Virus record (IMG/VR): IMGVR_UViG_3300047566_000150
Location: 1-38,493 of that record
Reading direction: 5' to 3' (one strand)
From: a virus
Length of the DNA: 38,493 nucleotides
Shown here: positions 15,434 through 38,304 of the stretch, piece by piece
How positions within the stretch are numbered: the first letter of the stretch is position 1
Layout: every line of letters starts with the position of its first letter
Made by a program: the position numbers and the translations under genes
The notes under the pieces: model-generated
Databases searched by the model: none
The model's input: only the letters and a program-made list of their open reading frames with translations
What the model was told of the DNA's origin: nothing

Positions 15434-15863
15434 GAAAACTTCTCAACATCCAGTGGTGTTTATCATGAGCACCTATTCTATCTTGGATGAAATTAGAAAG
15501 TCCCTGTTCATTGGCCGCATTGGCTTGTTTGAATGCATCATAAAGTGATGCACGAACAATATCATTATCTGCAAGAAGAATCGTAATCATATCTCTAGCT
15601 GTAGGAACTGTCAATTCATCTTGAATAGATGAAAGTTCTATATATCTACTTAATGCACCTGGTGCATAAGAATCTAGATAGCGGATATGTTCAGCAATAG
15701 GATCTACCGCTGCCCACAATTCTGAGTAAAGATTGCCGAAGAAGTCGTGCAATTCAGAGAAGAACATGCCTTCAACATTCCAATGAAAATTATGTGATTT
15801 CAAGTACAAAGAAAAGGTATTTGCAAGAACCTTTTTCATTGATTCAGTTAATTCTGTTTGCAT
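15420..15863 (-). CDS. Dps-like ferritin (DNA protection / iron storage)
   Basis: A 147-residue protein on the opposite strand, with a GAGGT ribosome site before its ATG. The Dps signature is clear: NFHWNVEGMFFSELHDFF, D54 and E58 in VDPIAEHI, and a C-terminal DRIGAHDKHHWMLRSFL. Relative to E. coli Dps, H27, H39, D54 and E58 match ferroxidase ligands, but the acidic ligand expected four residues after H39 is Gly43. It has no lysine-rich N-terminal tail for DNA binding. A dodecamer storing iron and removing peroxide is the family role. It may guard phage DNA, or the iron that NrdB needs, against oxidation. It is convergent with the upstream gene and divergent from 15926. Confidence 0.93.
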   Translation of the reverse strand: MQTELTESMKKVLANTFSLYLKSHNFHWNVEGMFFSELHDFFGNLYSELWAAVDPIAEHIRYLDSYAPGALSRYIELSSIQDELTVPTARDMITILLADNDIVRASLYDAFKQANAANEQGLSNFIQDRIGAHDKHHWMLRSFLKLV

Positions 15864-27337: not shown

Positions 27338-27366
27338 TTGACAAAATACCTATTATTTGATATAAT
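27338..27366 (+). promoter_or_regulatory. Array promoter 1
   Basis: TTGACA, 17 bp, TATAAT, the first unit of the 27-38 kb array. The spacer is AAATACCTATTATTTGA. The -10 is 30 bases before ATG 27397, and the leader contains GAATAAACAAGGA. Confidence 0.92.
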
Positions 27367-27396
27367 ATCTCTATATTGAATAAACAAGGAATCGAA

Positions 27397-27846
27397 ATGG
27401 CTACCCGTTCAACTATCGCTCTTGAATATCCTGATGGTACTGTTAAACAAGTCTATTGTCATTGGGATGGTTATCCCTCGCATAATGGTAAGCTTCTCCT
27501 TGAAAATTGGTCAGATTTCGAGAAACTGGACAATCTGATGAAAGAGGGCGATCTTAGTTTTCTTGGTGAATCGATTGGTTATAAGCGGAGTTTTAGTGCG
27601 CCTCCTTTTGATACTCCGGAATATGAAGCGCATTCAAAAATGTGTCTCTTTTATGGACGTGATCGTGGAGAAGAAGGCTGTGCAGCACGTTCTTTCTGGA
27701 ATTTTGAAATGTATGCAATGAGTGGTCAAAAGGAAGAATATAATTATGTCTTCCGTCCTAATAACGGTGGTTGGTTCTATCGGACTTATAGAAGCAAGTT
27801 TTTTGCCGAATTGACCTGGCCAGCGGAACAATGTGTGATGGAGTAA
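27397..27846 (+). CDS. Conserved phage protein (MATRSTIALEY family)
   Basis: A 149-residue protein from ATG 27397 with CAAGGA just upstream; an in-frame TTG in the promoter leader is not credible. The start MATRSTIALEYPDGTVKQVY and the WDGYPSHNGKLLLENW block are widely shared by phage and bacterial hypothetical proteins. It continues with FWNFEMYAMSGQKEEYNYVF and GGWFYRTYRSKFFAELTW. Cytoplasmic; function unknown. Cotranscribed with 27849. Confidence 0.82.
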   Translation: MATRSTIALEYPDGTVKQVYCHWDGYPSHNGKLLLENWSDFEKLDNLMKEGDLSFLGESIGYKRSFSAPPFDTPEYEAHSKMCLFYGRDRGEEGCAARSFWNFEMYAMSGQKEEYNYVFRPNNGGWFYRTYRSKFFAELTWPAEQCVME

Positions 27847-27848
27847 TA

Positions 27849-28061
27849 ATGACCGTCAGCAAAAAAAATATTGTTGATAATGTTTCTTCTCTTAAACAGC
27901 AATGGACTGCTGGAAGTATAGAGGAATTGAATGAGGAATTCCGACTTGAGTGTTTGAGTTTTCATCCTATGGGATATGGAACGCGCATGTATAATATTAT
28001 GAAAGATGAATTCACGATGATGTATTCAGCCACATTTTATCGATTTAAGTCGTGTGATTAG
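27849..28061 (+). CDS. Small hypothetical protein
   Basis: A 70-residue protein two bases after the previous stop, starting MTVSKKNIVDNVSSLKQQW. It is helical with a mixed C-terminal half (LSFHPMGYGTRMYNIMKDEF). The upstream GTG at 27831 would overlap the previous gene and is less likely. A terminator follows. No family recognised. Confidence 0.65.
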   Translation: MTVSKKNIVDNVSSLKQQWTAGSIEELNEEFRLECLSFHPMGYGTRMYNIMKDEFTMMYSATFYRFKSCD

Positions 28062-28080
28062 TAAAAGATTAAATTGTTCT

Positions 28081-28124
28081 AATGGCTTTCATCTATGGAG
28101 AGTAGATGGAAAGCCATTTTCTTT
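28081..28124 (+). terminator. Rho-independent terminator
   Basis: AATGGCTTTCATCTA, a 7-base loop and TAGATGGAAAGCCATT form a stem of about 15 bp with one bulged base, followed by TTTTCTTT. It ends the unit started at promoter 27338. Confidence 0.8.
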
Positions 28125-28172
28125 GTACTTGATATGTGGTGTTTGTGGAGCGAGAAAGTTTAGAGGTTAATT

Positions 28173-28466
28173 ATGATAGCATTATGTCCATTTTGTGGTA
28201 GTAAAGCTGAACAAAAAGAATATGATGAACGTGGTGGATATGGTGAATATGAGCGAACCATAAAATATCATTTGGTTGTATGTGGAGGATGTGGTGCTGA
28301 AGGACCAAAAAAGCATCAAAAATGGTTAATTGATTTCACAAAATATACTGTTAATGATTTCAGGAATAATCCTATTCTTCGTGCCAGGGTTGAGGAAGAA
28401 TATGAAGAATATTGTAGAAATGTTAAACAAGCTGCACTTGTCGCGGCCATTCTCCGTAAATTTTGA
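28173..28466 (+). CDS. Lar-like restriction-alleviation zinc protein
   Basis: A 97-residue protein with the Lar-family zinc pattern: MIALCPFCGSKAE (C5, C8) and HLVVCGGCGAEGPKK (C37, C40), followed by helices. E. coli Rac-prophage Lar alleviates type I restriction by affecting the modification balance; many phage relatives are untested. The stop TGA lies inside the -35 box of the next promoter. Its own promoter is not obvious, and it follows a terminator, so read-through or a weak promoter between 28125 and 28172 is expected. Role as anti-restriction is inference. Confidence 0.78.
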   Translation: MIALCPFCGSKAEQKEYDERGGYGEYERTIKYHLVVCGGCGAEGPKKHQKWLIDFTKYTVNDFRNNPILRARVEEEYEEYCRNVKQAALVAAILRKF

Positions 28467-28491
28467 CAAAATAATCAATTTATCGTATAAT
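28463..28491 (+). promoter_or_regulatory. Array promoter 2
   Basis: TTGACA, 17 bp, TATAAT. The upstream stop TGA (28464-28466) is in the -35 hexamer. The -10 is 29 bases before ATG 28521. Confidence 0.92.
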
Positions 28492-28520
28492 ACATTCATA
28501 ATGAATAAACGGAAAAACAA

Positions 28521-28670
28521 ATGAATCATACTATGACTTACATTAACGTATTATGCGTGGCTCTAACTGCCTATGTCGCTGGTATAAGTGAGCACCCTTT
28601 ACCTAAAATCGTCAATATGTTTGCAATGTTTTTTAACCTAGCTGTTATCGCATGGAGATTCTTCGGATGA
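28521..28670 (+). CDS. Small two-helix membrane protein
   Basis: A 49-residue protein first behind its promoter. Two hydrophobic segments (about 7-23 and 31-48) flank a short GISEHPLPK loop. The ATGA overlap with 28667 couples it to a second membrane protein, so the two may work together. Function unknown. Confidence 0.65.
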   Translation: MNHTMTYINVLCVALTAYVAGISEHPLPKIVNMFAMFFNLAVIAWRFFG

Positions 28671-29230
28671 AAAAACTTTTTATTATTGCCCTAATGATGG
28701 GCTTTTATGGACTTGCATTTGGTGGCACTACAGCCATCGATACCCGAGGACTAAGTCAAGAACAAATCAATTCCCTTGTTGCACAAAGGGACAAGATGAA
28801 AAGTCCTGAGAATCTAAGTGCAACGGTTCGCAATGAAGCCGCCGCTTGGGCTGATCTTGGTTCAAACATCGGAACAGCATTGGTATCCGCTGCAAAGGAA
28901 GTTGGTGTAGCAGCCAATGAATTCTCTGGTACCCAACTAGGCAAGATTGTAACGGTTATCGTTGTTTATAAAGTCATGGGCAAGGATATCTTGGGCGTCC
29001 TTGTAGGTAGCTTTATTCTTGTCTTTGGTTTTGGCATGGCAGTGTGGTTGTTGATTACTAAACGGTTTCATGATTGTAAGTATGAAACACGACCGGTGCT
29101 TAAAGGACTGTTCAATCGTCGGTATCTTACAGCGAGTGAAATTTCAAGCAACTTGGCTGAGATTAAGATTTTTACGGCTGGGGCATTTATTGTTCTTAGC
29201 ACCATCGTTGGTCTAAACTGTATCTTTTAA
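28667..29230 (+). CDS. Exported multi-span membrane protein
   Basis: A 187-residue protein from ATG 28667 with a signal-like start (MKKLFIIALMMGFYGLAFG). An extracytoplasmic helical segment TAIDTRGLSQEQINSLVAQR...ADLGSNIGTALVSAAKEVG precedes two or three hydrophobic helices (VTVIVVYKVMGKDILGVLVG; SFILVFGFGMAVWLLITKRF; FTAGAFIVLSTIVGLNCIF). The signal, the DTRGLS..Q start and the W..LG..IG...AKE.GVA.NEF motif recur in small membrane proteins of diverse phages. A role in superinfection exclusion or membrane change is possible. Confidence 0.8.
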   Translation: MKKLFIIALMMGFYGLAFGGTTAIDTRGLSQEQINSLVAQRDKMKSPENLSATVRNEAAAWADLGSNIGTALVSAAKEVGVAANEFSGTQLGKIVTVIVVYKVMGKDILGVLVGSFILVFGFGMAVWLLITKRFHDCKYETRPVLKGLFNRRYLTASEISSNLAEIKIFTAGAFIVLSTIVGLNCIF

Positions 29231-29234
29231 TAGA

Positions 29235-29263
29235 TTGACAAAATAACCAATTTATCGTATAAT
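29235..29263 (+). promoter_or_regulatory. Array promoter 3
   Basis: TTGACA, 17 bp, TATAAT, 23 bases before ATG 29287. The spacer (AAATAACCAATTTATCG) is close to that of the 28463 promoter, so these two form a subgroup. Confidence 0.92.
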
Positions 29264-29286
29264 GCATTCATTGATAGAACATAATC

Positions 29287-29742
29287 ATGAATGTATTCCT
29301 CGATCTAGAAGAAACTGTAATCACTTCCTGGGCAGATGGCATGTTATTGCATACCACTCCTGTCCGGGAGTTTCTTCAACAAAATAACGTCAAAAAAGTC
29401 CATATCTTTTCATTCGCAATCTGGAATAAAAAAGATCAAGATGATTTTGATCGCCGATTCAAATCTACACTAGAAAAAGTCCTTAAAGTCAATATCGCCG
29501 CTCGCCCCTCCGTTGAAGATATGATGCGAGCCGATACACTAATGACAGGATTGCAATTTGATAGCATTACGGATTTTGTTTCAATCCGTGGCAAAACAGG
29601 AGCATTTCAAAACTTTTGCCGATTTCATTTTGACCACCAAGTTAATGTCCTAATCGATGATGTTGTACCTAATGCATCATTTACCAATGATGATACAGGA
29701 TTAGTCTGTGAATTTATTAATGTCAATAGTTTATTGACATAA
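29287..29742 (+). CDS. HAD-like protein with DxE motif
   Basis: A 151-residue protein. HAD motif I is FLDLEETVI, with the nucleophile D6 but Glu instead of Asp at the general acid position. Motif II is IFSFAIW (Ser) and motif IV is VLIDDVVPN. The DxE form occurs in a branch of phage HAD-like proteins and could still be a slow phosphatase or phosphotransferase. It has no cap domain. Substrate unknown. Its stop lies in the spacer of the next promoter. Confidence 0.8.
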   Translation: MNVFLDLEETVITSWADGMLLHTTPVREFLQQNNVKKVHIFSFAIWNKKDQDDFDRRFKSTLEKVLKVNIAARPSVEDMMRADTLMTGLQFDSITDFVSIRGKTGAFQNFCRFHFDHQVNVLIDDVVPNASFTNDDTGLVCEFINVNSLLT

Positions 29743-29762
29743 TATCCATTATTTGATATAAT
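29734..29762 (+). promoter_or_regulatory. Array promoter 4
   Basis: TTGACA, 17 bp, TATAAT. The upstream gene's TAA stop (29740-29742) is in the spacer. The -10 is 32 bases before ATG 29795; the leader is ACTTCTACACTGATTAAACA. Confidence 0.92.
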
Positions 29763-29794
29763 ACTTCTACACTGATTAAACAAAGGCATAACAA

Positions 29795-30199
29795 ATGATC
29801 CAAATCAAATCCATTACCGGTCAAGTATTGTTTGAATCTAAAACAGCTAAAACAATCAAACAAGCCGTCGAGGAAGCCGTTAAATTAAAGGTAAACCTGT
29901 TCAGGGCTGATCTGTCCAGGGTTGATCTGTCCGGGACTAATCTGGCCGGGGCTTATCTGTACAAAGCTAATCTGTCCAAAGCCTACCTGTCCGACGCCGA
30001 CCTGTCCTACGCCGACCTGTCCTACGCCAACCTGTCCTACGCCAACCTGTCCTTCGCCGACCTGTCCGGCGCCAACCTGTCCGACGCCTACCTGTCCTTC
30101 GCCGACCTGTCCGACGCCGACCTGATCAACGCCAACCTGTCCGGCGCCTTGGACCTGTCCAAAGCCAATCTGTCCAACGCCAATCTGTCCAACGCCTAG
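29795..30199 (+). CDS. Pentapeptide-repeat protein A
   Basis: A 134-residue protein. Residues 1-32 form a cap ([20 protein letters not shown], then [12 protein letters not shown]), followed by about 20 pentapeptides of the form A(D/N)LSx, including LSYAN and LSDAD. Pentapeptide repeats fold as a right-handed quadrilateral beta-helix. In MfpA/Qnr proteins this fold mimics DNA and binds gyrase, and in others it has unknown roles. It shares its 5' 90 bases with gene 34040 and its middle with gene 36923. It ends at TAG, and a tail in another frame follows (30202-30258), suggesting a frameshift. Cytoplasmic. Confidence 0.88.
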
Positions 30200-30201
30200 C
30201 C

Positions 30202-30258
30202 TTGTATGAATTGCTGGATCGTGCTAAAGAATCTGTTGGTATGTTGGTTAAAAAATAA
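30202..30258 (+). pseudogene. Out-of-frame C-terminal remnant after pentapeptide gene A
   Basis: After the TAG of 29795-30199, a different frame reads LYELLDRAKESVGMLVKK then TAA. It has no start of its own and looks like a protein C-terminus. It may be the former tail of gene A, now cut off by a frameshift, or the end of another gene left by recombination at the cassette edge. Confidence 0.45.
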
Positions 30259-30259
30259 T

Positions 30260-30288
30260 TTGACAAAATACCGAATATTCACTATAAT
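30260..30288 (+). promoter_or_regulatory. Array promoter 5
   Basis: TTGACA, 17 bp (AAATACCGAATATTCAC), TATAAT, 30 bases before ATG 30319. Leader ACTTCCATACTGATAAAGAA. It is nearly identical to the 31299 and 36365 promoters. Confidence 0.93.
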
Positions 30289-30318
30289 ACTTCCATACTG
30301 ATAAAGAAAGTTTGGAAA

Positions 30319-30489
30319 ATGACCGTTCAAGAACTTATCGATTGCCTTAAAGAATTTGATCCTAATTTGGAAGTTACGGTCAACGATGAATGCAACGGTA
30401 TATTCCATAATGAAAGTTTTGAGCCCTATGTGTTCAATGACCGAGTGGACAATACCAAACAAGTAATCATTCCTGTGAATCCTTTTTAA
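30319..30489 (+). CDS. Small acidic phage protein (TVQELIDCLKEFDP family)
   Basis: A 56-residue protein directly behind a promoter. The start MTVQELIDCLKEFDPNLEV resembles a frequent small phage domain (T..ELI..L..FDP...V.V), followed by a short beta region ending VIIPVNPF. Usually annotated as hypothetical; no function known. Confidence 0.72.
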   Translation: MTVQELIDCLKEFDPNLEVTVNDECNGIFHNESFEPYVFNDRVDNTKQVIIPVNPF

Positions 30490-30500
30490 GGATTAATATC

Positions 30501-30671
30501 ATGCAAACTGTGGCTAATTATGTTTTTGTTGTTTTTGGTATCTATTTTACCATTATTGCCTTTCTTATGAATACCAAAAATTTCATATCAGCCTTTATTT
30601 TTCAGGTGATGCCCGGGCTCGCTGGTGTATTCATGTTGATCTATTCTTTTAAAAGTTTTGGAATACTTTAG
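30501..30671 (+). CDS. Small two-helix membrane protein
   Basis: A 56-residue protein with AAGGA before its ATG. Two hydrophobic segments (about 5-23 and 29-50) are joined by MNTKNF. Second in the unit driven by the 30260 promoter. Function unknown. Confidence 0.6.
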   Translation: MQTVANYVFVVFGIYFTIIAFLMNTKNFISAFIFQVMPGLAGVFMLIYSFKSFGIL

Positions 30672-30672
30672 C

Positions 30673-30876
30673 ATGGGCTACTCAAAAAATTCGCGTGGTA
30701 TTACTCAGTTTCGTCCTGATGATACCGACAACACTTTATATATTCCTTCTTCACAGATTTTGTCACTTAGCGATCTGTTAGAAGCCATTAACAACAAATG
30801 GCCTAATACCGATCCTAGTGATATTCTGATTGATTCAGAACATATCCAAATCGATTGTATTGGATATGACCAGTGA
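30673..30876 (+). CDS. Small hypothetical protein
   Basis: A 67-residue protein from ATG 30673, one base after the previous stop; the upstream TTG in this frame overlaps the membrane gene. It reads MGYSKNSRGITQFRPDDTD, then LSLSDLLEAINNKWP and ILIDSEHIQIDCIGYDQ, an alpha/beta pattern. Not recognised. Confidence 0.6.
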   Translation: MGYSKNSRGITQFRPDDTDNTLYIPSSQILSLSDLLEAINNKWPNTDPSDILIDSEHIQIDCIGYDQ

Positions 30877-30925
30877 TTACACAAACTTTATCGTTATCAC
30901 TAAAGTAAAGACCCCTCTATAAAGT

Positions 30926-31171
30926 ATGGCTTATACTAAAACAGTTAATTTTTCTTCAAGTGGTAACTATGGCTCTGGTCCAGAAACAGAGGATGATGTT
31001 TATACTATCGAAGAATTTAAAAGATTTTGTAAAAATGGGGGATTCTTGGATTGCGATGGGTTCGGACATCCAGTAAGGGATAATAAATGCGATCCTGATA
31101 TTTTTATCAAACCTTCACGATTAAAAGAAATTCCCAATAACGCTACTCATATTATATGGTATAATAGGTAA
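30926..31171 (+). CDS. Small hypothetical protein
   Basis: An 81-residue protein starting MAYTKTVNFSSSGNYGSGPE. It has VYTIEEFKRFCKNGGFLDCD and a C-terminal NNATHIIWYNR strand. The EEFKRFC..GGFLD.DGFG pattern occurs in small phage proteins with unknown function. It is 49 bases from the previous gene, with no close ribosome site of canonical form. Confidence 0.65.
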   Translation: MAYTKTVNFSSSGNYGSGPETEDDVYTIEEFKRFCKNGGFLDCDGFGHPVRDNKCDPDIFIKPSRLKEIPNNATHIIWYNR

Positions 31172-31178
31172 TCAATGT

Positions 31179-31292
31179 ATGGAAGAGACCTTTTCTGATC
31201 CAAAAGACAGGGTGTGTGTAAACTGTAAAAATTTGACTTTAAAATGGAATCCAATTGCATTGTTTAGTATTGAAGAAATCGAAGTAAAATAA
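31179..31292 (+). CDS. Chimeric small ORF ending in a duplicated tail
   Basis: A 37-residue ORF (MEETFSDPKDRVCVNCKN, then a Lys/Trp stretch) whose last codons FSIEEIEVK and stop are identical in DNA to the end of gene 31355-31546. The N-terminal CVNC suggests a lost zinc-binding protein. The join lies in a perfect 49-bp direct repeat, so this looks like a recombination product joining one gene's start to another's end. Confidence 0.45.
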   Translation: MEETFSDPKDRVCVNCKNLTLKWNPIALFSIEEIEVK

Positions 31293-31311
31293 TATTGATT
31301 GACAAAATACC
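31263..31311 (+). repeat. 49-bp direct repeat, copy 1
   Basis: This stretch spans the codons for FSIEEIEVK, the stop and the first part of the next promoter. It is identical to 31517-31565. Confidence 0.95.
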
Positions 31312-31327
31312 GAATATTCACTATAAT
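31299..31327 (+). promoter_or_regulatory. Array promoter 6
   Basis: TTGACA, 17 bp, TATAAT, 27 bases before ATG 31355. The -35 half lies in the 49-bp direct repeat. Confidence 0.92.
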
Positions 31328-31354
31328 ACTTCCATACTACTTTGGAATGAAGCG

Positions 31355-31546
31355 ATGAAAGTCTATCAGCTAATTGGCACAAGCATTGACGGTGGTGAGG
31401 ATTGGTCCTTCAAACCCATATACTCTACCCTCGAGGCAGCCGAAAAACAAAAGCAAATTGAAATCGATGCATATACTAAGGTAAATGGTATCGTGGAATT
31501 TGAATGTCCTTATATTTTTAGTATTGAAGAAATCGAAGTAAAATAA
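31355..31546 (+). CDS. Small hypothetical protein
   Basis: A 63-residue protein from ATG 31355; the longer in-frame ORF starts inside the promoter and cannot be transcribed whole. It reads MKVYQLIGTSIDGGEDWSFK, then YSTLEAAEKQKQIEID and FECPYIFSIEEIEVK, typical of small phage proteins with a KVY.L.G..DGG start. Its end is the source or copy of the 49-bp repeat. Confidence 0.7.
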   Translation: MKVYQLIGTSIDGGEDWSFKPIYSTLEAAEKQKQIEIDAYTKVNGIVEFECPYIFSIEEIEVK

Positions 31547-31565
31547 TATTGATTGACAAAATACC
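31517..31565 (+). repeat. 49-bp direct repeat, copy 2
   Basis: It is identical to 31263-31311 and lies 254 bp downstream. Recombination between the copies would delete one promoter-gene unit exactly. Confidence 0.95.
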
Positions 31566-31581
31566 TATTATTCGATATAAT
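31553..31581 (+). promoter_or_regulatory. Array promoter 7
   Basis: TTGACA, 17 bp (AAATACCTATTATTCGA), TATAAT, 32 bases before ATG 31614. The leader is diverged (ATTTTCACACTTAATTAAAA) but keeps AAAAGGA. Confidence 0.93.
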
Positions 31582-31613
31582 ATTTTCACACTTAATTAAA
31601 AGGAATTACCAAA

Positions 31614-31952
31614 ATGACTACTGTTAATGATCTTCGCAAGACCGTGAAACTTATTCAGCAAGAGAATGGCCAGATTCGGCAAACCGTCAAGGACAATCTC
31701 GCGCGAATTAATATTATTCAAGATCAGATTAAAAAGGCTCGACAGGAAGCCAAGGAAGCCCTGCAAAAAAGCAAGGCCGAAAAGGCTAAAGCGCGAAAAG
31801 AAAAGCGCGAAGCCAAGATTAAGGAACTTCAAGCTCGCATTAAAAAGCTTCAAGAACCTAAGATCGGTATTGCAGCTAAGAAAGCTTCACGCAAACCTGG
31901 TCCTGTTACCGTCACCGTGCGCGCCGGTATCGGTGCTACCGCGGAAGTTTAA
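31614..31952 (+). CDS. Lys/Ala-rich coiled-coil protein with basic tail
   Basis: A 112-residue protein. Residues about 5-80 are one long coiled coil (LRKTVKLIQQENGQIRQTVK, then Lys/Ala/Glu heptads KAKARKEKREAKIKELQARI). The tail IAAKKASRKPGPVTVTVRAG is basic with Pro. Composition is histone H1-like and could bind nucleic acid, but the heptads may equally mediate oligomerisation. Behind a strong promoter, so probably abundant early in infection. Confidence 0.75.
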   Translation: MTTVNDLRKTVKLIQQENGQIRQTVKDNLARINIIQDQIKKARQEAKEALQKSKAEKAKARKEKREAKIKELQARIKKLQEPKIGIAAKKASRKPGPVTVTVRAGIGATAEV

Positions 31953-31954
31953 TC

Positions 31955-32083
31955 ATGCTCGAAGCAATCCTTAGTGTCGGTCTATTTTGTATCATCCTAG
32001 CCGCACTAGGATTGCTGGCCGACTATCTAGAATCCCAAGAAAATCCTATTAGGAATCGATATAAACAACATGGAAATTATTAA
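31955..32083 (+). CDS. Small single-span membrane protein
   Basis: A 42-residue protein two bases after the previous stop, with one hydrophobic segment (ILSVGLFCIILAALGLLADY) and a polar C-terminus (LESQENPIRNRYKQHGNY). Overlaps the next gene by 14 bases. Function unknown. Confidence 0.6.
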   Translation: MLEAILSVGLFCIILAALGLLADYLESQENPIRNRYKQHGNY

Positions 32084-32435
32084 TACCTATAAAAAGGTAA
32101 TCGATATCCTAGCACAAGAGGATTTGGATTATAAAAGTATTGTTATTAAATTGGCCAAAAGATATCCAGAAACTTTTGTGGAACTTGTCGATCCACATAA
32201 ATCTTATGCCGATGAAGTTTGCGACATGATCGCAAACCGTAAATTATATGAATCAGTTAAATTGATTCGGGCTAAAGAAGGTTTGGGTTTGTATGACGCC
32301 AAACAAATTATGGATAATCTTGTCATGCGAATGTATGTATTAAATAAGCTATCATGGACTCCCGGTCCTGAAAGATTGAAAGTTAAAAAACTCGAAGGAC
32401 TTAATAGAGATATCTATAATAAACTAATCGGTTGA
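32070..32435 (+). CDS. bL12 C-terminal-domain-like protein, paralogue 1
   Basis: A 121-residue protein. An N-terminal helical part (YKKVIDILAQEDLDYKSIV, LAKRYPETFVELV) is shared with 33122. Residues about 62-85, SVKLIRAKEGLGLYDAKQIM, match the bL12 (L7/L12) C-terminal core I..IR..TGLGL.EAK..V, which on the ribosome recruits translation GTPases. It lacks the bL12 N-terminal dimerisation domain. Some phages are known to encode ribosomal proteins including bL12. A role in steering translation is possible but unproven. Its TGA stop lies in the next -35 box. Confidence 0.75.
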   Translation: MEIINTYKKVIDILAQEDLDYKSIVIKLAKRYPETFVELVDPHKSYADEVCDMIANRKLYESVKLIRAKEGLGLYDAKQIMDNLVMRMYVLNKLSWTPGPERLKVKKLEGLNRDIYNKLIG

Positions 32436-32460
32436 CAAAATTCCTATTATTTGGTATACT
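32432..32460 (+). promoter_or_regulatory. Array promoter 8
   Basis: TTGACA, 17 bp (AAATTCCTATTATTTGG), TATACT. The stop TGA of 32070-32435 is inside the -35. ATG 32487 lies 26 bases after the -10. Confidence 0.88.
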
Positions 32461-32486
32461 GTTTCCATATTGATTAGGAAATAACA

Positions 32487-32798
32487 ATGAAACATTCCTA
32501 TACCTTACGACTGTATAAGAAAGATAAACGTCTTACCCGTGGGGCTAAGTATGGCAGTCCGAATAAGATCGGTAAACGGTTTATCTGTTCATTTCAGTAT
32601 GATAAACATGATAAAACCGATATGAAACGGGAAGTCCGAAAGCTCAGACGGCATTATAAGTCTGTGGATGGTTATTCTTTTGAATACTTTCCAACTTATA
32701 AGACTGTCACCAACTTAATGTCAGGCAAAAAGATTCAAATTGCAACGGATACTCCTATTTGCTGCGATCCGTCATCCGAGACCTATTGGTCTATGTAA
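32487..32798 (+). CDS. Basic hypothetical protein
   Basis: A 103-residue Lys/Arg-rich protein: MKHSYTLRLYKKDKRLTRG, KIGKRFICSFQYDKHDKTDM, KREVRKLRRHYKSVDGYSF. The end CCDPSSETYWSM is acidic to neutral, and the CC pair could bind metal. A small nucleic-acid-binding or ribosome-associated protein is possible; no family recognised. Confidence 0.68.
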   Translation: MKHSYTLRLYKKDKRLTRGAKYGSPNKIGKRFICSFQYDKHDKTDMKREVRKLRRHYKSVDGYSFEYFPTYKTVTNLMSGKKIQIATDTPICCDPSSETYWSM

Positions 32799-32803
32799 AT
32801 TAG

Positions 32804-32832
32804 TTGACAAAATACCTATTATTCACTATAAT
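32804..32832 (+). promoter_or_regulatory. Array promoter 9
   Basis: TTGACA, 17 bp (AAATACCTATTATTCAC), TATAAT, 31 bases before ATG 32864. The leader differs and contains a small hairpin (32836-32852). Confidence 0.92.
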
Positions 32833-32835
32833 TAA

Positions 32836-32852
32836 CTGCTACTGAATAGCAG
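32836..32852 (+). promoter_or_regulatory. Leader hairpin CTGCTA-TAGCAG
   Basis: CTGCTA, a CTGAA loop and TAGCAG form a 6-bp stem at the very 5' end of the mRNA. It may protect the transcript end or be a remodelled TACTGAATA block; there is no T-run, so it is not a terminator. Confidence 0.4.
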
Positions 32853-32863
32853 GATAATAAAAC

Positions 32864-33055
32864 ATGAAATGCCCAAATTGTAATCGTATTGCAAAAGTGC
32901 CTGAGGTGGCTCTAATTAATACCGATACATATGATCGCACTGTCAAAGTCCGTGTAAGTTGTTGTAATAAAATAGTTTTTCTGTCGCCAGTTCGCTCATA
33001 TCGCCTTGATTTATACCGCGAAAAAGATGGCGAAAAGGATGATTGGGGCGAATAA
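32864..33055 (+). CDS. Small zinc-finger protein
   Basis: A 63-residue protein with CPNC (3/6) near the start and VSCCNK (33/34), likely one zinc site, and an acidic end DGEKDDWGE. The IAKVPEVALINTDTYDRTV strand part resembles the small zinc proteins of phages related to DNA-sensing or regulatory roles only by shape. Function unknown. Confidence 0.7.
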   Translation: MKCPNCNRIAKVPEVALINTDTYDRTVKVRVSCCNKIVFLSPVRSYRLDLYREKDGEKDDWGE

Positions 33056-33061
33056 TACCGC

Positions 33062-33090
33062 TTGACATAATATCCATTATTCGATATAAT
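33062..33090 (+). promoter_or_regulatory. Array promoter 10
   Basis: TTGACA, 17 bp (TAATATCCATTATTCGA), TATAAT, 31 bases before ATG 33122. The leader is the standard ACTTCCATACTGAATAAACA followed by AGGA. Confidence 0.94.
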
Positions 33091-33121
33091 ACTTCCATAC
33101 TGAATAAACAAGGATTTTCAA

Positions 33122-33502
33122 ATGACCAAAGATATGTATTATAAACAAGCCATCGATCTGCTCATGAATTCCGACCTGGACTTTCGAGCGATGATTGTTC
33201 GCCTGGCCAAAGAAGATCCAGAAACTTTTATCAATCTGACCAATAAACCGAAAAAGTCAGAAGAATATCTTTACAGGGTTGTTAGCGAAATCAAGAATGG
33301 TAATAAGGTTAGTGCCATTAAGATTCTTCGTGAAAATACCGGCTTTATGATCAAAGAAAGTAAAGATATTGTGGATAACCTGTATGTATATATCCGGTCT
33401 CGGTATTCTTATCTTGATCTTCCTGCAGCGCCCGGGCCAGTCCCGATGCTGAGTGGTTCTCAGCTTGAAGTATTGGATGCCCTTTTAAAGGTTGCAGGTT
33501 AA
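33122..33502 (+). CDS. bL12 C-terminal-domain-like protein, paralogue 2
   Basis: A 126-residue paralogue of 32070 with the same layout: helices AIDLLMNSDLDFRAMIVRLA and DPETFINLT, then the bL12-like core SAIKILRENTGFMIKESKDI (about 64-83) with VDNL. A Pro-rich linker PAAPGPVPM precedes a final helix (SGSQLEVLDALLKVAG); paralogue 1 has WTPGPERL at the same place. Identity to paralogue 1 is moderate, so the duplication is old. Ribosome or GTPase-centre interaction is inferred from the fold only. Confidence 0.76.
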   Translation: MTKDMYYKQAIDLLMNSDLDFRAMIVRLAKEDPETFINLTNKPKKSEEYLYRVVSEIKNGNKVSAIKILRENTGFMIKESKDIVDNLYVYIRSRYSYLDLPAAPGPVPMLSGSQLEVLDALLKVAG

Positions 33503-33504
33503 TC

Positions 33505-33684
33505 ATGAAATTCTTTAGTGTGGATAATCTTGAAGGCTTGGCCATTGCCCTTGTGGTAAGCTATTTGATGACGTTGGATGTTACGTTATACAAGATTTTG
33601 GGCTACAGTACCATTATATATGGACTCTCTGTCATCAATACCAGGCTTATCATTCTTCAAAAAACGCTTGACGAAAAATCCTAA
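33505..33684 (+). CDS. Small membrane protein
   Basis: A 59-residue protein two bases after 33502 with two hydrophobic segments (LAIALVVSYLMTLDVTLY; LGYSTIIYGLSVINTRLI) and a charged end QKTLDEKS. Its stop lies in the spacer of the next promoter. Function unknown. Confidence 0.6.
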   Translation: MKFFSVDNLEGLAIALVVSYLMTLDVTLYKILGYSTIIYGLSVINTRLIILQKTLDEKS

Positions 33685-33696
33685 TCCTAATATAAT
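33668..33696 (+). promoter_or_regulatory. Array promoter 11
   Basis: TTGACG, 17 bp, TATAAT, lying in the last codons and stop of 33505-33684. It is 35 bases before ATG 33732. The leader keeps ATACTGAACAA. The -35 last base differs, so it may be weaker. Confidence 0.85.
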
Positions 33697-33731
33697 ATTC
33701 TTATACTGAACAACAGAAGCGTGAACAAGTC

Positions 33732-33980
33732 ATGTCTTATCGTAGCAAGTATGTCATTTTGGACCAAACTGTAACGGTTGGTATCGTATTCAGCGATTAT
33801 ATCAATCATTCAGAAATGGCCCAAGTGATTGGTGGCAAAGTAATTGGCGCTGGATTCTGTTTCATTGAAGATAACCGTTATGTTTGCTACGGTGAAAGCA
33901 CTTCATTGAAAGTCAAGAGCCGCCCCGAAGAAGATGCACAGATCCTCAACAAATACCTCGGGACTGTTCACGAAAATTGA
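33732..33980 (+). CDS. Small conserved phage protein (SKYVIL family)
   Basis: An 82-residue protein reading MSYRSKYVILDQTVTVGIVF, YINHSEMAQVIGGKVIGAGF and ENRYVCYGESTSL-like sequence (DNRYVCYGES). The S.H..MA...G..VI.AGFC.I pattern occurs in small phage proteins of unknown role. Behind its own promoter; the stop is directly adjacent to the next -35. Confidence 0.75.
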   Translation: MSYRSKYVILDQTVTVGIVFSDYINHSEMAQVIGGKVIGAGFCFIEDNRYVCYGESTSLKVKSRPEEDAQILNKYLGTVHEN

Positions 33981-34009
33981 TTGACAAAATACCTATTATT
34001 CGATATAAT
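33981..34009 (+). promoter_or_regulatory. Array promoter 12
   Basis: TTGACA, 17 bp (AAATACCTATTATTCGA), TATAAT. The -35 begins on the base after the upstream stop TGA. ATG 34040 lies 30 bases after the -10. Confidence 0.94.
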
Positions 34010-34039
34010 ACTTCCATACTGATAAAGAAAGTATAACAA

Positions 34040-34420
34040 ATGATCCAAATCAAATCCATTACCGGTCAAGTATTGTTTGAATCTAAAACAGCTAAAACAA
34101 TCAAACAAGCCGTCGAGGAAGCCGTTAAACTGAATATTAATTTGGCAGAAATCGATTTGGGCGGGGCTGATCTAGCTGGCGCTAATCTCCAAGATGGTCT
34201 ATTCTATTGTGCATACATGAAAGGTGCCAATCTCAAAGGCGCCGATCTTAAATATGCATATCTTAAGGGTGCTACCCTTTGGCGCGCTAATCTAGCATTT
34301 TCCAGTCTATCTTTTGCGAATTTGTGTCAAGCCGACCTGAAAGAGGCAAACCTGTTAGAAGCAAATCTCTGGGGTGCCGATCTAACCGATGCTGATTTAT
34401 CTGGTACTAACATACCGTAA
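34040..34420 (+). CDS. Pentapeptide-repeat protein B
   Basis: A 126-residue protein with the same cap as protein A ([20 protein letters not shown]), then a diverged helix: ADLAGANLQDGLFYCAYMKG, ANLKGADLKYAYLKGATLWR and ADLKEANLLEANLWGADL. Unlike A, C, D and E the pentapeptides are varied and the codons are mixed, so this copy is older or under stronger selection. The first 90 bases are nearly identical to gene 29795. A DNA-mimic or protein-binding beta-helix is inferred. Confidence 0.88.
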   Translation: MIQIKSITGQVLFESKTAKTIKQAVEEAVKLNINLAEIDLGGADLAGANLQDGLFYCAYMKGANLKGADLKYAYLKGATLWRANLAFSSLSFANLCQADLKEANLLEANLWGADLTDADLSGTNIP

Positions 34421-34426
34421 TATCAT

Positions 34427-34455
34427 TTGACAAAATACCGATTATTCGATATAAT
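34427..34455 (+). promoter_or_regulatory. Array promoter 13
   Basis: TTGACA, 17 bp (AAATACCGATTATTCGA), TATAAT, 32 bases before ATG 34488. The leader is GACCCTATATTGAATATATA followed by AAGGA. Confidence 0.93.
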
Positions 34456-34487
34456 GACCCTATATTGAATATATAAAGGACTTCCTA

Positions 34488-34661
34488 ATGATCTTCCAAA
34501 TCATTTCATCCACCAATAAAGTCCTCTTCCAATCCACCACCGCCAAATCCTGTAAAGAAACCCTCATCCAAGCCAAACAAGCCAATATCGACCTCTCCAA
34601 TTTAGACTTCATCGCACCTAATATCTCCCTCCTCCGCACCACCCACCAATCAAACACTTGA
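34488..34661 (+). CDS. Cap-only mini-paralogue of the pentapeptide proteins
   Basis: A 57-residue protein. MIFQIISSTNKVLFQSTTAK followed by SCKETLIQAKQANIDLSNLD aligns with the cap of the pentapeptide proteins (I.I.S....VLF.S.TAK..K....A). Only two pentapeptides follow (ANIDL, SNLDF) before an unrelated end. It may be a natural cap that binds the larger family members or their target, or a decayed copy. Its TGA stop lies in the next -35. The ribosome site AAAGGA is good, so it is probably made. Confidence 0.7.
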   Translation: MIFQIISSTNKVLFQSTTAKSCKETLIQAKQANIDLSNLDFIAPNISLLRTTHQSNT

Positions 34662-34686
34662 CTAAATTCCGATTATTCGATATAAT
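34658..34686 (+). promoter_or_regulatory. Array promoter 14
   Basis: TTGACT, 17 bp, TATAAT. The upstream stop TGA is in the -35. The leader is the standard ACTTCCATACTGAATAAACA; ATG 34720 lies 33 bases after the -10. Confidence 0.92.
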
Positions 34687-34719
34687 ACTTCCATACTGAA
34701 TAAACAAGGAAAGCCAAAT

Positions 34720-34935
34720 ATGACCGCCAAACTCTCGAAAAAAGTCCAACGCGATCTGGCTAGCCGTATCAATTCAATCATGGTCTCATGCGAAATGATC
34801 GACGCAATGTTTAAAAAGAACGATATTAAAACCGCCAAACTTTTTCAAGATCAATATTTCAAGGAAATTGTTTCCTTGTTTGATAATTACGGCATTAAAC
34901 TTCCTGCATATGATATCGCCGTAAACTACCTTTGA
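34720..34935 (+). CDS. Small helical protein
   Basis: A 71-residue protein: MTAKLSKKVQRDLASRINSI, MIDAMFKKNDIKTAKLFQDQ, YFKEIVSLFDNYGIKLP. All helical, with alternating charge. Single gene in its promoter unit; the stop TGA lies in the next -35. Function unknown. Confidence 0.68.
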   Translation: MTAKLSKKVQRDLASRINSIMVSCEMIDAMFKKNDIKTAKLFQDQYFKEIVSLFDNYGIKLPAYDIAVNYL

Positions 34936-34960
34936 CAAAATACCGATTATTCGATATAAT
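34932..34960 (+). promoter_or_regulatory. Array promoter 15
   Basis: TTGACA, 17 bp (AAATACCGATTATTCGA), TATAAT. The stop of 34720-34935 is inside the -35. It drives the AAA+ gene at 34993 (32 bases after the -10). Confidence 0.94.
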
Positions 34961-34992
34961 ACTTCCATACTGATTGATTAACGGAGTAATCC

Positions 34993-35826
34993 ATGCCCCG
35001 CGGCGTACCCAAGAACGGCTTTCGCAAAACCAAAAACTACATGAACCGCGTTACTAACCAAACGCCTGCGCTTGAAACCGTTCCCTCCTCCAGATTCACC
35101 ATCAATGAACGATTCGGCTTTGTCCAAGATATGGTCCAACTCCTCTGTAAAGGCGACCAATCCTCAGTCGTAATCACCGGCCCGGGCGGCCTCGGCAAAA
35201 CCTTTAACGTCTTAAAAGCCCTCCAATCCTGTGGCATGCAAGATTATTCCGACCTCGCATCCTTTGAAGTCGGATCTTCCCTGAGTACAAAAAAGTCCTT
35301 CATCGTAGTTAAAGGCTATTCTACGCCTAAAGGTCTCTACAGGACCTTGTATGAGAATCAAAATGGCGTCATCGTTTTCGATGATTGCGATTCCGTTCTG
35401 AAGGATCCAGTGTCCCTTAATCTACTTAAAGCCGCGCTGGATTCTTACAGTCGCCGTATTATCTCCTGGAGAGCCGATATCCGCGATGAGGATTTGCCGA
35501 CTAGCTTTGAATTCCGTGGTCGTGTAATCTTCATTTCCAATCTTTCATCCATTCAAATGGATCAAGCCATCATCTCCCGCTCCATGGCCGTTGATCTTTC
35601 TATGACGCGCCAACAGAAAATCGATAGAATGCGATTCCTGCTCTCCCAAGATGATTTTATGCAAGAATATAAACAACAATATAAACAAGATGCTATCGAC
35701 CTGATCGAATCCTTAGCAGACAAAGTAAAGGAATTAACACTACGGACTCTCATTCAGGTTACTATCATCCGTAAGGGTGGTGGTAGCAACTGGAAAAACC
35801 TGGCTGAATATACAATTTGCGGTTGA
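34993..35826 (+). CDS. AAA+ family ATPase
   Basis: A 277-residue P-loop ATPase. Walker A is GPGGLGKT (63-70), Walker B is VIVFDDCD (126-133), sensor 1 is VIFISNLSS, and SRSMAVDL carries candidate Arg-finger residues. A basic N-terminus (MPRGVPKNGFRKTKN) may contact nucleic acid, and a C-terminal helical domain (TLRTLIQVTIIRKGGGSNWK) resembles the lid region. AAA+ proteins of this size in phages include helicase loaders and remodelling factors; no partner is evident here. It is the only enzyme-like gene in the early promoter array apart from the HAD-like protein. Confidence 0.87.
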   Translation: MPRGVPKNGFRKTKNYMNRVTNQTPALETVPSSRFTINERFGFVQDMVQLLCKGDQSSVVITGPGGLGKTFNVLKALQSCGMQDYSDLASFEVGSSLSTKKSFIVVKGYSTPKGLYRTLYENQNGVIVFDDCDSVLKDPVSLNLLKAALDSYSRRIISWRADIRDEDLPTSFEFRGRVIFISNLSSIQMDQAIISRSMAVDLSMTRQQKIDRMRFLLSQDDFMQEYKQQYKQDAIDLIESLADKVKELTLRTLIQVTIIRKGGGSNWKNLAEYTICG

Positions 35827-35881
35827 TAAAATGACACTAGCCACCTTTAGAACTCGTCCCTAATCCACCTGAAAATCCTAA

Positions 35882-35910
35882 CCCCTACCCGCCAGGGGGC
35901 TAAACCCTCC
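35882..35910 (+). terminator. Possible weak terminator or GC-rich hairpin
   Basis: In the 167-bp gap after the AAA+ gene, CCCCT pairs with AGGGG, or alternatively AGGG with CCCT, followed by a short CTCTTTCT. The stem is short and the T-run imperfect. The gap holds no credible ORF. Confidence 0.35.
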
Positions 35911-35931
35911 TCTTTCTGTATAATATACCAT

Positions 35932-35960
35932 TTGACAAAATACCGAATATTCGATATAAT
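35932..35960 (+). promoter_or_regulatory. Array promoter 16
   Basis: TTGACA, 17 bp (AAATACCGAATATTCGA), TATAAT, with the standard leader; ATG 35994 lies 33 bases after the -10. Confidence 0.94.
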
Positions 35961-35993
35961 ACTTCCATACTGAATAAACAAGAATATATCCAA

Positions 35994-36368
35994 ATGATCT
36001 ATACCTATTGCAATGATACGGTCTCCGATCTCCACAAAGATGCATATGGAATTCGTCCGTCTATCGACTTCTGGACCTTCTGGTCCACAGCCACGGACGA
36101 TCAAAAACAATCCACTTGGAATGATCTAATGAAGGCCGCTGATGCTTCCTGGAATGAAGAGCAGAGCCGTCAGATTCTGGCCGAAGATGATTTTGAGCGC
36201 CGAATCCTTCAGCTTATGTCCTGTGGAGCCAAAAGCCGTGAAATGGCTATAGAATGGCTCCATCAAGCGTATGATACCAAGGGCGACAATAATTATTTGG
36301 AATACTGTCTGGGAATCTCTTACGGCTATATCGCCGGCGAATTTCCTGGGGTTCTTCCAGCCGCTTGA
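35994..36368 (+). CDS. Conserved phage protein (DAYGIRPS family)
   Basis: A 124-residue protein. The start has [20 protein letters not shown], followed by [20 protein letters not shown] and [12 protein letters not shown] and a final GYIAGEFPG. The DAYGFRP...FE..I...GA..R..A..WL pattern is very common in small proteins of phages of Gram-negative bacteria and has no proven function. The stop TGA lies in the next -35. Confidence 0.82.
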
Positions 36369-36393
36369 CAAAATACCGAATATTCACTATAAT
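36365..36393 (+). promoter_or_regulatory. Array promoter 17
   Basis: TTGACA, 17 bp (AAATACCGAATATTCAC), TATAAT. The upstream stop is in the -35. The sequence CCAGCCGCTTGACAAAAT at 36357-36374 recurs at 36855-36872. ATG 36427 lies 33 bases after the -10. Confidence 0.94.
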
Positions 36394-36426
36394 ATCTCCA
36401 TACTGAATAAACAAAGGCGCTGGAAG

Positions 36427-36819
36427 ATGATTCAAATTAAATCCATCAACGATCAAGTCCTGTTTGAATTAGAAACGGCTAAAACGATCAAGGAAGCCGT
36501 TGAGGAAGCTATTGCAAAGATGGTCGGCCTGTCCTACGCCAACCTGTACGGCGCTAACCTGTCCAAAGCCTACCTGATCAACGCCGACCTGATCAACGCC
36601 AACCTGTCCGACGCCAACCTGACCAACGCCGATCTGACCTACGCCGACCTGACCGACGCCGATCTGTCCTACGCCAACCTGTCCAAAGCAAACCTGTCCT
36701 ACGCCAACCTGTCCAAAGCCAACCTGTACAAAGCGACCCTGACCGGAGCCGACCTGTACGGCGCTAACCTGACCGGCGCTGATCTGTCCGAAGCCAACCT
36801 GTCCGAAGCCTACCGGTAG
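36427..36819 (+). CDS. Pentapeptide-repeat protein C
   Basis: A 130-residue protein from ATG 36427; the longer in-frame ORF runs through the promoter. The cap is [20 protein letters not shown] plus [13 protein letters not shown], followed by about 19 pentapeptides, mostly [20 protein letters not shown]. Codons are nearly fixed (GCC AAC CTG TCC), unlike the AT-rich rest of the genome. It ends YR-TAG inside a 16-bp palindrome. Cap and DNA are almost identical to 37602. Confidence 0.88.
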
Positions 36820-36822
36820 GCT
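36807..36822 (+). repeat. 16-bp perfect palindrome at the end of pentapeptide gene C
   Basis: AGCCTACCGGTAGGCT is its own reverse complement and contains the TAG stop. It overlaps a second palindrome, TAGGCTAGCCTA (36817-36828). It may be a recombination scar or an RNA/protein site. Confidence 0.85.
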
Positions 36823-36835
36823 AGCCTAGATTAAA

Positions 36836-36849
36836 GCCGCTTCGGCGGC
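36836..36849 (+). promoter_or_regulatory. GCCGC-UUCG-GCGGC hairpin
   Basis: A 5-bp GC stem closed by a TTCG tetraloop, an exceptionally stable RNA hairpin. There is no T-run, so it is not a classic terminator. It could protect or process the 3' end of the pentapeptide C mRNA. Confidence 0.6.
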
Positions 36850-36862
36850 GTGAACCAGCCGC

Positions 36863-36891
36863 TTGACAAAATTCTGATTATTCGATATAAT
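36863..36891 (+). promoter_or_regulatory. Array promoter 18
   Basis: TTGACA, 17 bp (AAATTCTGATTATTCGA), TATAAT, 31 bases before ATG 36923. The leader is ACTTCCATACTGATTAAACA. Confidence 0.94.
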
Positions 36892-36922
36892 ACTTCCATA
36901 CTGATTAAACAAAGTATAACAA

Positions 36923-37555
36923 ATGATTCAAATTAAATCCATCAACGATCAAGTCCTGTTTGAATCAGAAACGGCTAAAACGATCAAGAAAGCCGTCGAG
37001 GAAGCCGTTAAATTAAAGGTAAACCTGTTCAGGGCTGATCTGTCCAGGGTTGATCTTTCTAAAGCTAATCTGGCCGGGGCTTATCTGTACAAAGCTAATC
37101 TATCCAAAGCTAATCTGTCCGGGACTAATCTGGCCGGGGCTGATCTGTCCAAAGTTAATCTGTATAAAGCCGATCTATCCGACGCCAACCTGTCCGAAGC
37201 CGACCTGTCCGAAGCCGACCTGTCCGACGCCAACCTGTCCAAAGCCGATCTATCCGACGCCAACCTGTCCGAAGCCGACCTGACCGAAGCCGACCTGTCC
37301 GACGCCAACCTGTCCAAAGCCGACCTGTCCGAAGCCGACCTGACCGGAGCGTTCCTGTCCGAAGCCAACCTGTCCAACGCCTACCTGTACAAAGCCAACC
37401 TGTCCAAAGCCGACCTGTCCGAAGCCGACCTGACCGGAGCCAACCTGTCCAACGCCTACCTGTACAAAGCCAACCTGTCCAAAGCCGACCTGTCCAAAGC
37501 CGACCTGTCCAAAGCCGACCTGTCCAACGCTTCAATGCTCTTGACTAAATTCTGA
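36923..37555 (+). CDS. Pentapeptide-repeat protein D
   Basis: A 210-residue protein and a mosaic. The first 15 codons match the C/E type ([15 protein letters not shown]), while [17 protein letters not shown] and the GTNLAGA stretch match protein A almost base for base. About 35 pentapeptides follow, [15 protein letters not shown] and LYKAN in blocks; a 75-bp block (about 37321-37395) is closely repeated at 37405-37470. The longer helix would be about twice the length of A and C. The last codons LLTKF and the stop lie in the next promoter. Function inferred as for the family. Confidence 0.88.
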
Positions 37556-37569
37556 TTATTCGATATAAT
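37541..37569 (+). promoter_or_regulatory. Array promoter 19
   Basis: TTGACT, 17 bp, TATAAT. It encodes the last codons of gene D (LTKF) and its stop. ATG 37602 lies 32 bases after the -10. Confidence 0.92.
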
Positions 37570-37601
37570 ACTTCCATACTGATTAAACAAAGGCGCCGCC
37601 G

Positions 37602-38279
37602 ATGATTCAAATTAAATCCATCAACGATCAAGTCCTGTTTGAATCAGAAACGGCTAAAACGATCAAGGAAGCCGTTGAGGAAGCTGTTGCAAAGATGGTC
37701 GACCTGTCCAAAGCCGACCTGTCCAAAGCCAACCTGTCCAACGCCGACCTGTACAAAGCCGACCTGTCCAACGCCAACCTGTCCAACGCCGACCTGTCCT
37801 TCGCCGACCTGTCCGGCGCCAACCTGTTCTACGCCAACCTGTCCAAAGCCAACCTGTCCTACGCCGACCTGTCCGGCGCCAACCTGTCCAACGCCAACCT
37901 GTCCAAAGCCAACCTGTCCGACGCCGACCTGTCCTTCGCTAACCTGTCCGGCGCCAACCTGTGCGACGCCAACCTGTCCGACGCCTACCTGTCCGGCGCC
38001 AACCTGTCCAACGCCAACCTGTTCAAAGCCAACCTGTCCGGAGCCAACCTGTCCAACGCCAACCTGTCCAACGCCAACCTGTTCAAAGCCGACATGTCCG
38101 ACGCCTACCTGTCCGACGCCAACCTGTCCTACGCCAACCTGTACGGCGCCGATCTGTTCGAAGCCAACCTGACCAAAGCCAACCTGACCGGGGCTAATCT
38201 GTCCGAAGCCAACCTGTCCGGCGCCGACCTGACGGGTGCATCAATTCTTCTTGGTAATCGTTTTATTAAAGTCGCTTGA
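37602..38279 (+). CDS. Pentapeptide-repeat protein E
   Basis: A 225-residue protein, the longest of the family. The cap [20 protein letters not shown] plus [14 protein letters not shown] is followed by about 36 pentapeptides, dominated by [15 protein letters not shown] and ANLFK, and a short non-repeat end ([13 protein letters not shown]) that would close the helix. DNA is built from repeated 15-bp units around GCCAACCTGTCC. The stop TGA lies in the next -35. A DNA-mimic or scaffold role is inferred; A/N/D-rich faces give a mixed rather than strongly acidic surface. Confidence 0.88.
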
Positions 38280-38304
38280 CTAAATTCTGATTATTCGATA
38301 TAAT
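38276..38304 (+). promoter_or_regulatory. Array promoter 20
   Basis: TTGACT, 17 bp, TATAAT. The stop of gene E is inside the -35. Standard leader; ATG 38335 lies 30 bases after the -10. Confidence 0.93.

Follow-up and report, generated by a model that had tools for sequence, protein, structure and literature searches.

Two small genes on a phage contig, whose products recall ribosomal protein bL12, raise the question of which part of bL12 they have kept and what a phage might do with it. The window, that is, the whole stretch analyzed here, is the virus record IMGVR_UViG_3300047566_000150 (38,493 bases), which we read as a fragment of a phage genome. It encodes both ribonucleotide reductase subunits, a DNA primase, an RNA ligase and a collagen-like tail fibre, a gene content that fits a large T4-like phage. 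The two genes (ORF1 and ORF2, table 1) lie where the original prediction had placed a pair of paralogues resembling the bL12 C-terminal domain (CTD). With 36 of 102 residues identical (E 4e-18 in a single pairwise comparison), sequence comparison identifies them as paralogues; two unrelated small ORFs (32487-32798 and 32864-33055) lie between them.

Table 1. Features of the ORF1/ORF2 locus (positions in the window)
Feature	Position	Strand	Remarks
Perfect promoter of the ORF1 operon	31553..31581	+	Heads 31614-31952, 31955-32083 and, last, ORF1
ORF1	32070..32435	+	121 aa; diverged paralogue; ATG overlaps the stop of the preceding ORF (31955-32083)
ORF1 N-terminal helical module, YKKVIDILAQEDLDYKSIVIKLAKRYPETFVELV	32088..32192	+	Common to ORF2, L159, L134 and L172
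ORF1 bL12-type alpha4-alpha5 hairpin	32238..32321	+	Pfam match, alignment, shuffle test
Perfect sigma-70-type promoter (TTGACA-17-TATAAT) of ORF2	33062..33090	+	About 30 bases upstream of the ATG at 33122
ORF2	33122..33502	+	126 aa; predicted all-helical (AlphaFold2); AAGGA ribosome-binding-site-like sequence just upstream
ORF2 N-terminal helical module, YKQAIDLLMNSDLDFRAMIVRLAKEDPETFINLT	33140..33241	+	Alignment and shuffle test with relatives
ORF2 three-helix segment	33254..33403	+	Helices 45-58, 62-73 and 77-94; pLDDT about 91-95; last two correspond to the bL12 alpha4-alpha5 hairpin

The Pfam model of the bL12 CTD (PF00542, curated cut-off 25.9 bits) matched ORF2 over profile positions 9-42 of 67 (E 3.9e-5, 24.3 bits) and ORF1 over positions 16-36 (E 0.033, 15 bits), and the L12 model of NCBIfam matched the same stretch. 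bL12 entries also ranked at the top, weakly, in phmmer and profile searches of PDB sequences. Against a CTD model built from genuine bL12s, ORF2 scored 34.4 bits and ORF1 18.8 bits, while the best of about 2,500 composition shuffles per ORF reached 9.7 and 8.2 bits, respectively. Profile-profile comparison with bL12 aligned 29 columns at 96% probability for the ORF1/ORF2 pair and 32 columns at 98% when relatives were added. All these alignments span alpha4 and alpha5 and end near the end of alpha5. Because the shuffles were beaten and only 29-32 columns align, the similarity is, as judged from sequence, real but limited to the alpha4-alpha5 hairpin of about 30 residues, and these comparisons establish homology of this hairpin to bL12. 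The strand-helix-strand that completes the bL12 CTD was unrecognizable in both proteins in the profile alignments. As originally proposed, the ribosome-anchoring part is missing: neither ORF gave a Pfam match to the bL12 N-terminal dimerisation/uL10-binding domain at E up to 10. We also asked whether the hairpin might derive from the EF-Ts N-terminal/UBA-like domain and discarded this idea, with no Pfam match at E up to 10.

Two AlphaFold2 predictions were made, one from the two window proteins (mean pLDDT 76) and one from five homologues (mean pLDDT 80; 70-80 over five models). Both models, of moderate quality and built from shallow alignments, have one layout, with helices at 3-16, 21-31, 33-40, 45-58, 62-73, 77-94 and 113-125, and the hairpin together with the preceding helix is the part predicted with high confidence. 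Neither model contains a beta strand anywhere, so that a complete CTD, with its beta-alpha-alpha-beta-alpha-beta fold, is predicted to be absent. A helix occupies the position of the bL12 strand beta1, and alpha5 continues straight at the point where that of bL12 breaks. A Foldseek search of the PDB gave nothing below E 1; among the BFVD viral models, unnamed phage proteins came on top and two phage proteins annotated as bL12 CTD-containing came lower. A different predicted fold had been set beforehand as the refutation of a CTD, and the all-helical models with no fold match in the PDB do remove the CTD as a fold; the hairpin, which rests on shuffles and profiles, stands.

To search for relatives, a DNA pattern for the hairpin was used, which matched at least 120 viral stretches. 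Among the matches listed, proteins of three unrelated IMG/VR viral contigs resembled ORF2 beyond the hairpin in a set of 80 proteins: L159 (E 4.7e-13), L134 (E 2.8e-11) and L172 (E 3.9e-11). Their N-terminal parts scored 15.8-21.3 bits against a profile of the two window N-termini, were beaten by none of 2,000 shuffles each and were conspicuous when 2.7 Mb of loci were scanned. ORF1, ORF2, L159, L134 and L172 all have the two modules in the same order, a helical module with the signature 'LA[KN]-x2-PE-x-[FI]' followed by the hairpin. The whole-length matches and the N-terminal shuffle test point to a recurrent two-part architecture, and the helical N-terminal part that had been noted as shared by the two paralogues thus extends beyond the window. 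The three relatives differ from the window proteins in that a single copy was found in each and in that L172 has a long extra N-terminus. L159 (38.6 bits) and L172 (33.8 bits) exceed the Pfam cut-off for bL12 and therefore form a bridge from the weaker window proteins to bL12. L172 ends 12 residues past the equivalent of K84 (E. coli bL12 numbering, used throughout for contact residues), so that the rest of the CTD cannot fit; bL12 itself has 36 more residues past K84. Among the matches listed, 101 distinct non-ribosomal viral proteins could be compared; 19 of them terminate no more than 27 residues past this position, and the hairpin occurs in many differing protein contexts in phages. The similar proteins L219 and L232 also exceed the Pfam cut-off. 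These two, L202 and a Curvibacter phage protein have a similar architecture and were not accepted as family members, their N-terminal parts failing the strict shuffle test.

IMG/VR searches with ORF1, ORF2 and their alignment gave no close relative, and the nearest phage relatives, identified through NrdA and the gene at 34993-35826, lack ORF1 and ORF2 genes, indicating that these genes are accessory. The peptide pattern AK-x2-PETF matched only unrelated proteins, and a plasmid search gave one weak match.

Phage proteins with bL12 domains are already known, as the original prediction correctly stated, for example, from Salmonella phage FSL SP-076 and Sulfitobacter phage phiCB2047-B; one such protein was found in 70S ribosome preparations (PMC6375957). 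Like them, ORF1 and ORF2 carry bL12 sequence in an otherwise unrelated protein that has no ribosome anchor; unlike them, they have the hairpin only, are duplicated and are fused to the 'LAK-x2-PE-x-F' module. The phiCB2047-B protein (126 aa, 25% coverage in Table 1 of PMC6375957) may also be hairpin-only, though it was not singled out there. A small protein with a non-ribosomal front part and a hairpin-only bL12 motif is likewise encoded by Curvibacter phage P26059A (ASJ79253, annotated as 'ribosomal protein L7/L12') and by Streptomyces Samistivirus phages (gp3/gp4). Their N-terminal parts, in contrast to those of the three viral relatives, are not demonstrably homologous to the window module (for ASJ79253, 943 of 2000 shuffles score as well). 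We found no paper on hairpin-only phage proteins in the literature; what is new here is the recognition that only the hairpin is retained, the N-terminal module that recurs beside it and the arrangement as duplicated early genes.

The retained residues differ between the paralogues. ORF2 keeps K65, V66, I69, K70, R73, G77, K81, E82, K84 and D85 of bL12 (apart from G77, these are its own K62, V63, I66, K67, R70, K78, E79, K81 and D82), and every checkable EF-Tu-contact residue is thus retained. In ORF1, K64, R67, G71 and K78 correspond to K70, R73, G77 and K84, whereas K65, V66, K81 and D85 are replaced; the GTPase-contacting surface once proposed for both proteins is therefore kept in ORF2 and partly lost in ORF1. 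K70, R73, G77 and K84 are invariant in an eight-protein alignment, of which the six non-window members came from a pattern requiring or favouring those residues. We also surveyed 97 distinct non-ribosomal viral hairpins among the matches listed, again selected by the pattern, so that several conserved residues are imposed there. At positions left free by the pattern, residue 65 is basic in 74%, 66 is Ile or Val in 95%, 79 is Gly in 87%, and 85 and 88 are acidic (D/E) in 85% and 97%, respectively. At the loosely constrained position 73, Arg is found in 100% although serine was allowed, and position 81 is basic in 97% although N/S/Q/H were allowed. Positions 63, 64, 67, 71, 74, 75 and 89 vary freely. 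When K65 or K70 is mutated, bL12 binds EF-Tu less well (PMC10602876), and helix D is the site on EF-Tu to which a set of biochemical studies assigns the bL12 CTD (PMC5770553). Taken with these data, the residue conservation speaks more for a factor-binding role that has been kept than for a mere scaffold.

The 27-37 kb region contains 15 perfect TTGACA-17-TATAAT promoters, most of them belonging to a 50-nt repeat that has a conserved stretch downstream. Over 27338-38304 (+), the array comprises these 15 perfect (12/12) and five near-perfect (11/12) sigma-70 promoters, each preceding one or a few small ORFs, and the downstream stretch 'ACTTCCATACTGAATAAACAA' is present in many copies. The array looks like an immediate-early region, and its layout suggests immediate-early genes read by host polymerase. 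The perfect promoters before ORF2 and the ORF1 operon belong to this array, and they agree with the early production suggested originally. In Streptomyces phage NootNoot, the gene for the hairpin protein is located at both genome ends, near the first gene, and related phages have the hairpin at two places per record, near the first genes, again an early position.

In bL12, the alpha4-alpha5 hairpin is what the ribosomal stalk uses to recruit translational GTPases. ORF1 and ORF2 may thus represent phage interference with, or borrowing of, the host protein-making machinery. Our preferred reading, to which we give an even chance, is that they are stand-alone mimics of the factor-binding hairpin that capture translational GTPases of the host away from the stalk, through competition or tethering. 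Both would be made as immediate-early proteins consisting of a helical N-terminal module and a stand-alone hairpin. Most likely in ORF2 at least, the hairpin would bind the G domain of one or more of EF-Tu, EF-G, IF2 and RF3. Since neither the anchor to the stalk nor the remainder of the CTD is present, such action would take place off the stalk, where the hairpin could either compete with bL12 for factors or tether a factor to whatever the N-terminal module binds. Either way, host translation might be reshaped early in infection, with ORF1 as a diverged copy of altered specificity. Competition for EF-Tu, EF-G or IF2, as first put forward, is a reasonable hypothesis, and early phage proteins that target ribosomes are known (PMC10914614). 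Several points count against factor capture. The bL12 hairpin packs on strands that are absent here, and a hairpin alone may be insufficient; the contact residues lost in ORF1, the accessory status of the genes, the moderate AlphaFold2 models and the pattern-selected survey weigh in the same direction, as does the finding that a tagged phage bL12 protein was not recovered with ribosomes by affinity (PMC6375957).

The main rival to factor capture holds that a helix-turn-helix module descended from bL12 now serves as a scaffold for another host or phage partner, with no relation to translation factors. The many phage protein contexts of the hairpin, the 19 of 101 chains that stop right after it, the stand-alone hairpin proteins that Mycolicibacterium chromosomes encode besides normal bL12 and the losses in ORF1 would all suit such reuse. 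However, few residues are as well conserved as the charged contact residues, even where the search pattern left them free, which a mere scaffold would not need, and we consider this explanation possible but doubtful. An origin of the bL12 likeness by convergence or chance in a helical protein might be suspected from the score of ORF2, just under the Pfam cut-off, and from the weakness of ORF1 alone. It was already disfavoured by observed scores far above all shuffles and by L159 and L172, which pass the cut-off and are similar to ORF1 and ORF2 over the whole protein, and it appears very improbable.

The two proteins might instead take the place of host bL12 in the stalk, a role of the kind suggested for other viral ribosomal proteins, and the phage bL12-domain protein in 70S preparations would offer a precedent. 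Replacement by a bona fide bL12 was rejected, as both the N-terminal domain (Pfam) and, with no beta strand predicted, the CTD fold are absent; we regard it as scarcely credible. The same hairpin evidence would also suit a protective role for ORF1 and ORF2: bound to EF-Tu or some other factor, they would act as decoys for, or shield it from, a host abortive-infection system by which that factor is attacked or sensed, with translation itself unchanged. Accessory, duplicated and variable early genes are typical of counter-defence, and the early ribosome-binding phage protein PHIKZ014 is of consequence in particular host strains, in a way that hints at a defence system (PMC10914614). As this decoy function would be entirely inferential, we judge it unlikely.

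Whole bL12 domains are known from phages; the version found here is duplicated, is reduced to little more than the factor-contact surface and lies behind strong early promoters, which suggests that it targets translational GTPases. If factor capture is true, these proteins would be minimal natural ligands of EF-Tu, EF-G or IF2 from which one could learn how the stalk chooses between factors, and they would represent a phage route of translation control that does not involve ribosome binding. The question can already be put to the test in those cultivated Streptomyces phages that encode a hairpin-only protein near both ends of the genome.

Other bL12-like proteins were observed during the searches. 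The Mycolicibacterium proteins (L250, 269-607 on the minus strand, and L248) are chromosomal and have an unrelated N-terminal part; like the window proteins they carry the bL12 hairpin (profile positions 8-37), here at the very C-terminus, with L250 ending at VDNL. In this order, 16 of 101 genomes gave related matches, and bL12 itself may account for some of these. A large separate phage protein family (L158, L122, L126, L196 and others), with the sequence 'MIPEEHK..I...GI.FMRSITE.YG...GM.LWD.I...LDP..KG.IFFAML.G', has a bL12-like hairpin followed by about 35 residues and probably possesses a complete CTD behind a non-ribosomal N-terminal domain.

Within the window, at least five pentapeptide-repeat proteins (29795-30199, 34040-34420, 36427-36819, 36923-37555 and 37602-38279) have a near-identical 30-residue N-terminus (MIQIKSI...VLFE..TAKTIK.AVEEA), and 34488-34661 is a possible shortened copy; we read them as an expanding family in the early region. 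The tail fibre gene at 5206-7068 (+) encodes collagen-like Gly-X-Y repeats and then a tandem run of 'AYAFANTVNVKTD[SA]'. An SPFH/Band 7 protein with a lipoprotein-like signal is encoded in this phage at 25218-26009 (+). Among the few likely minus-strand genes, that at 15420-15863 reads, by eye, like a Dps/ferritin-like protein.
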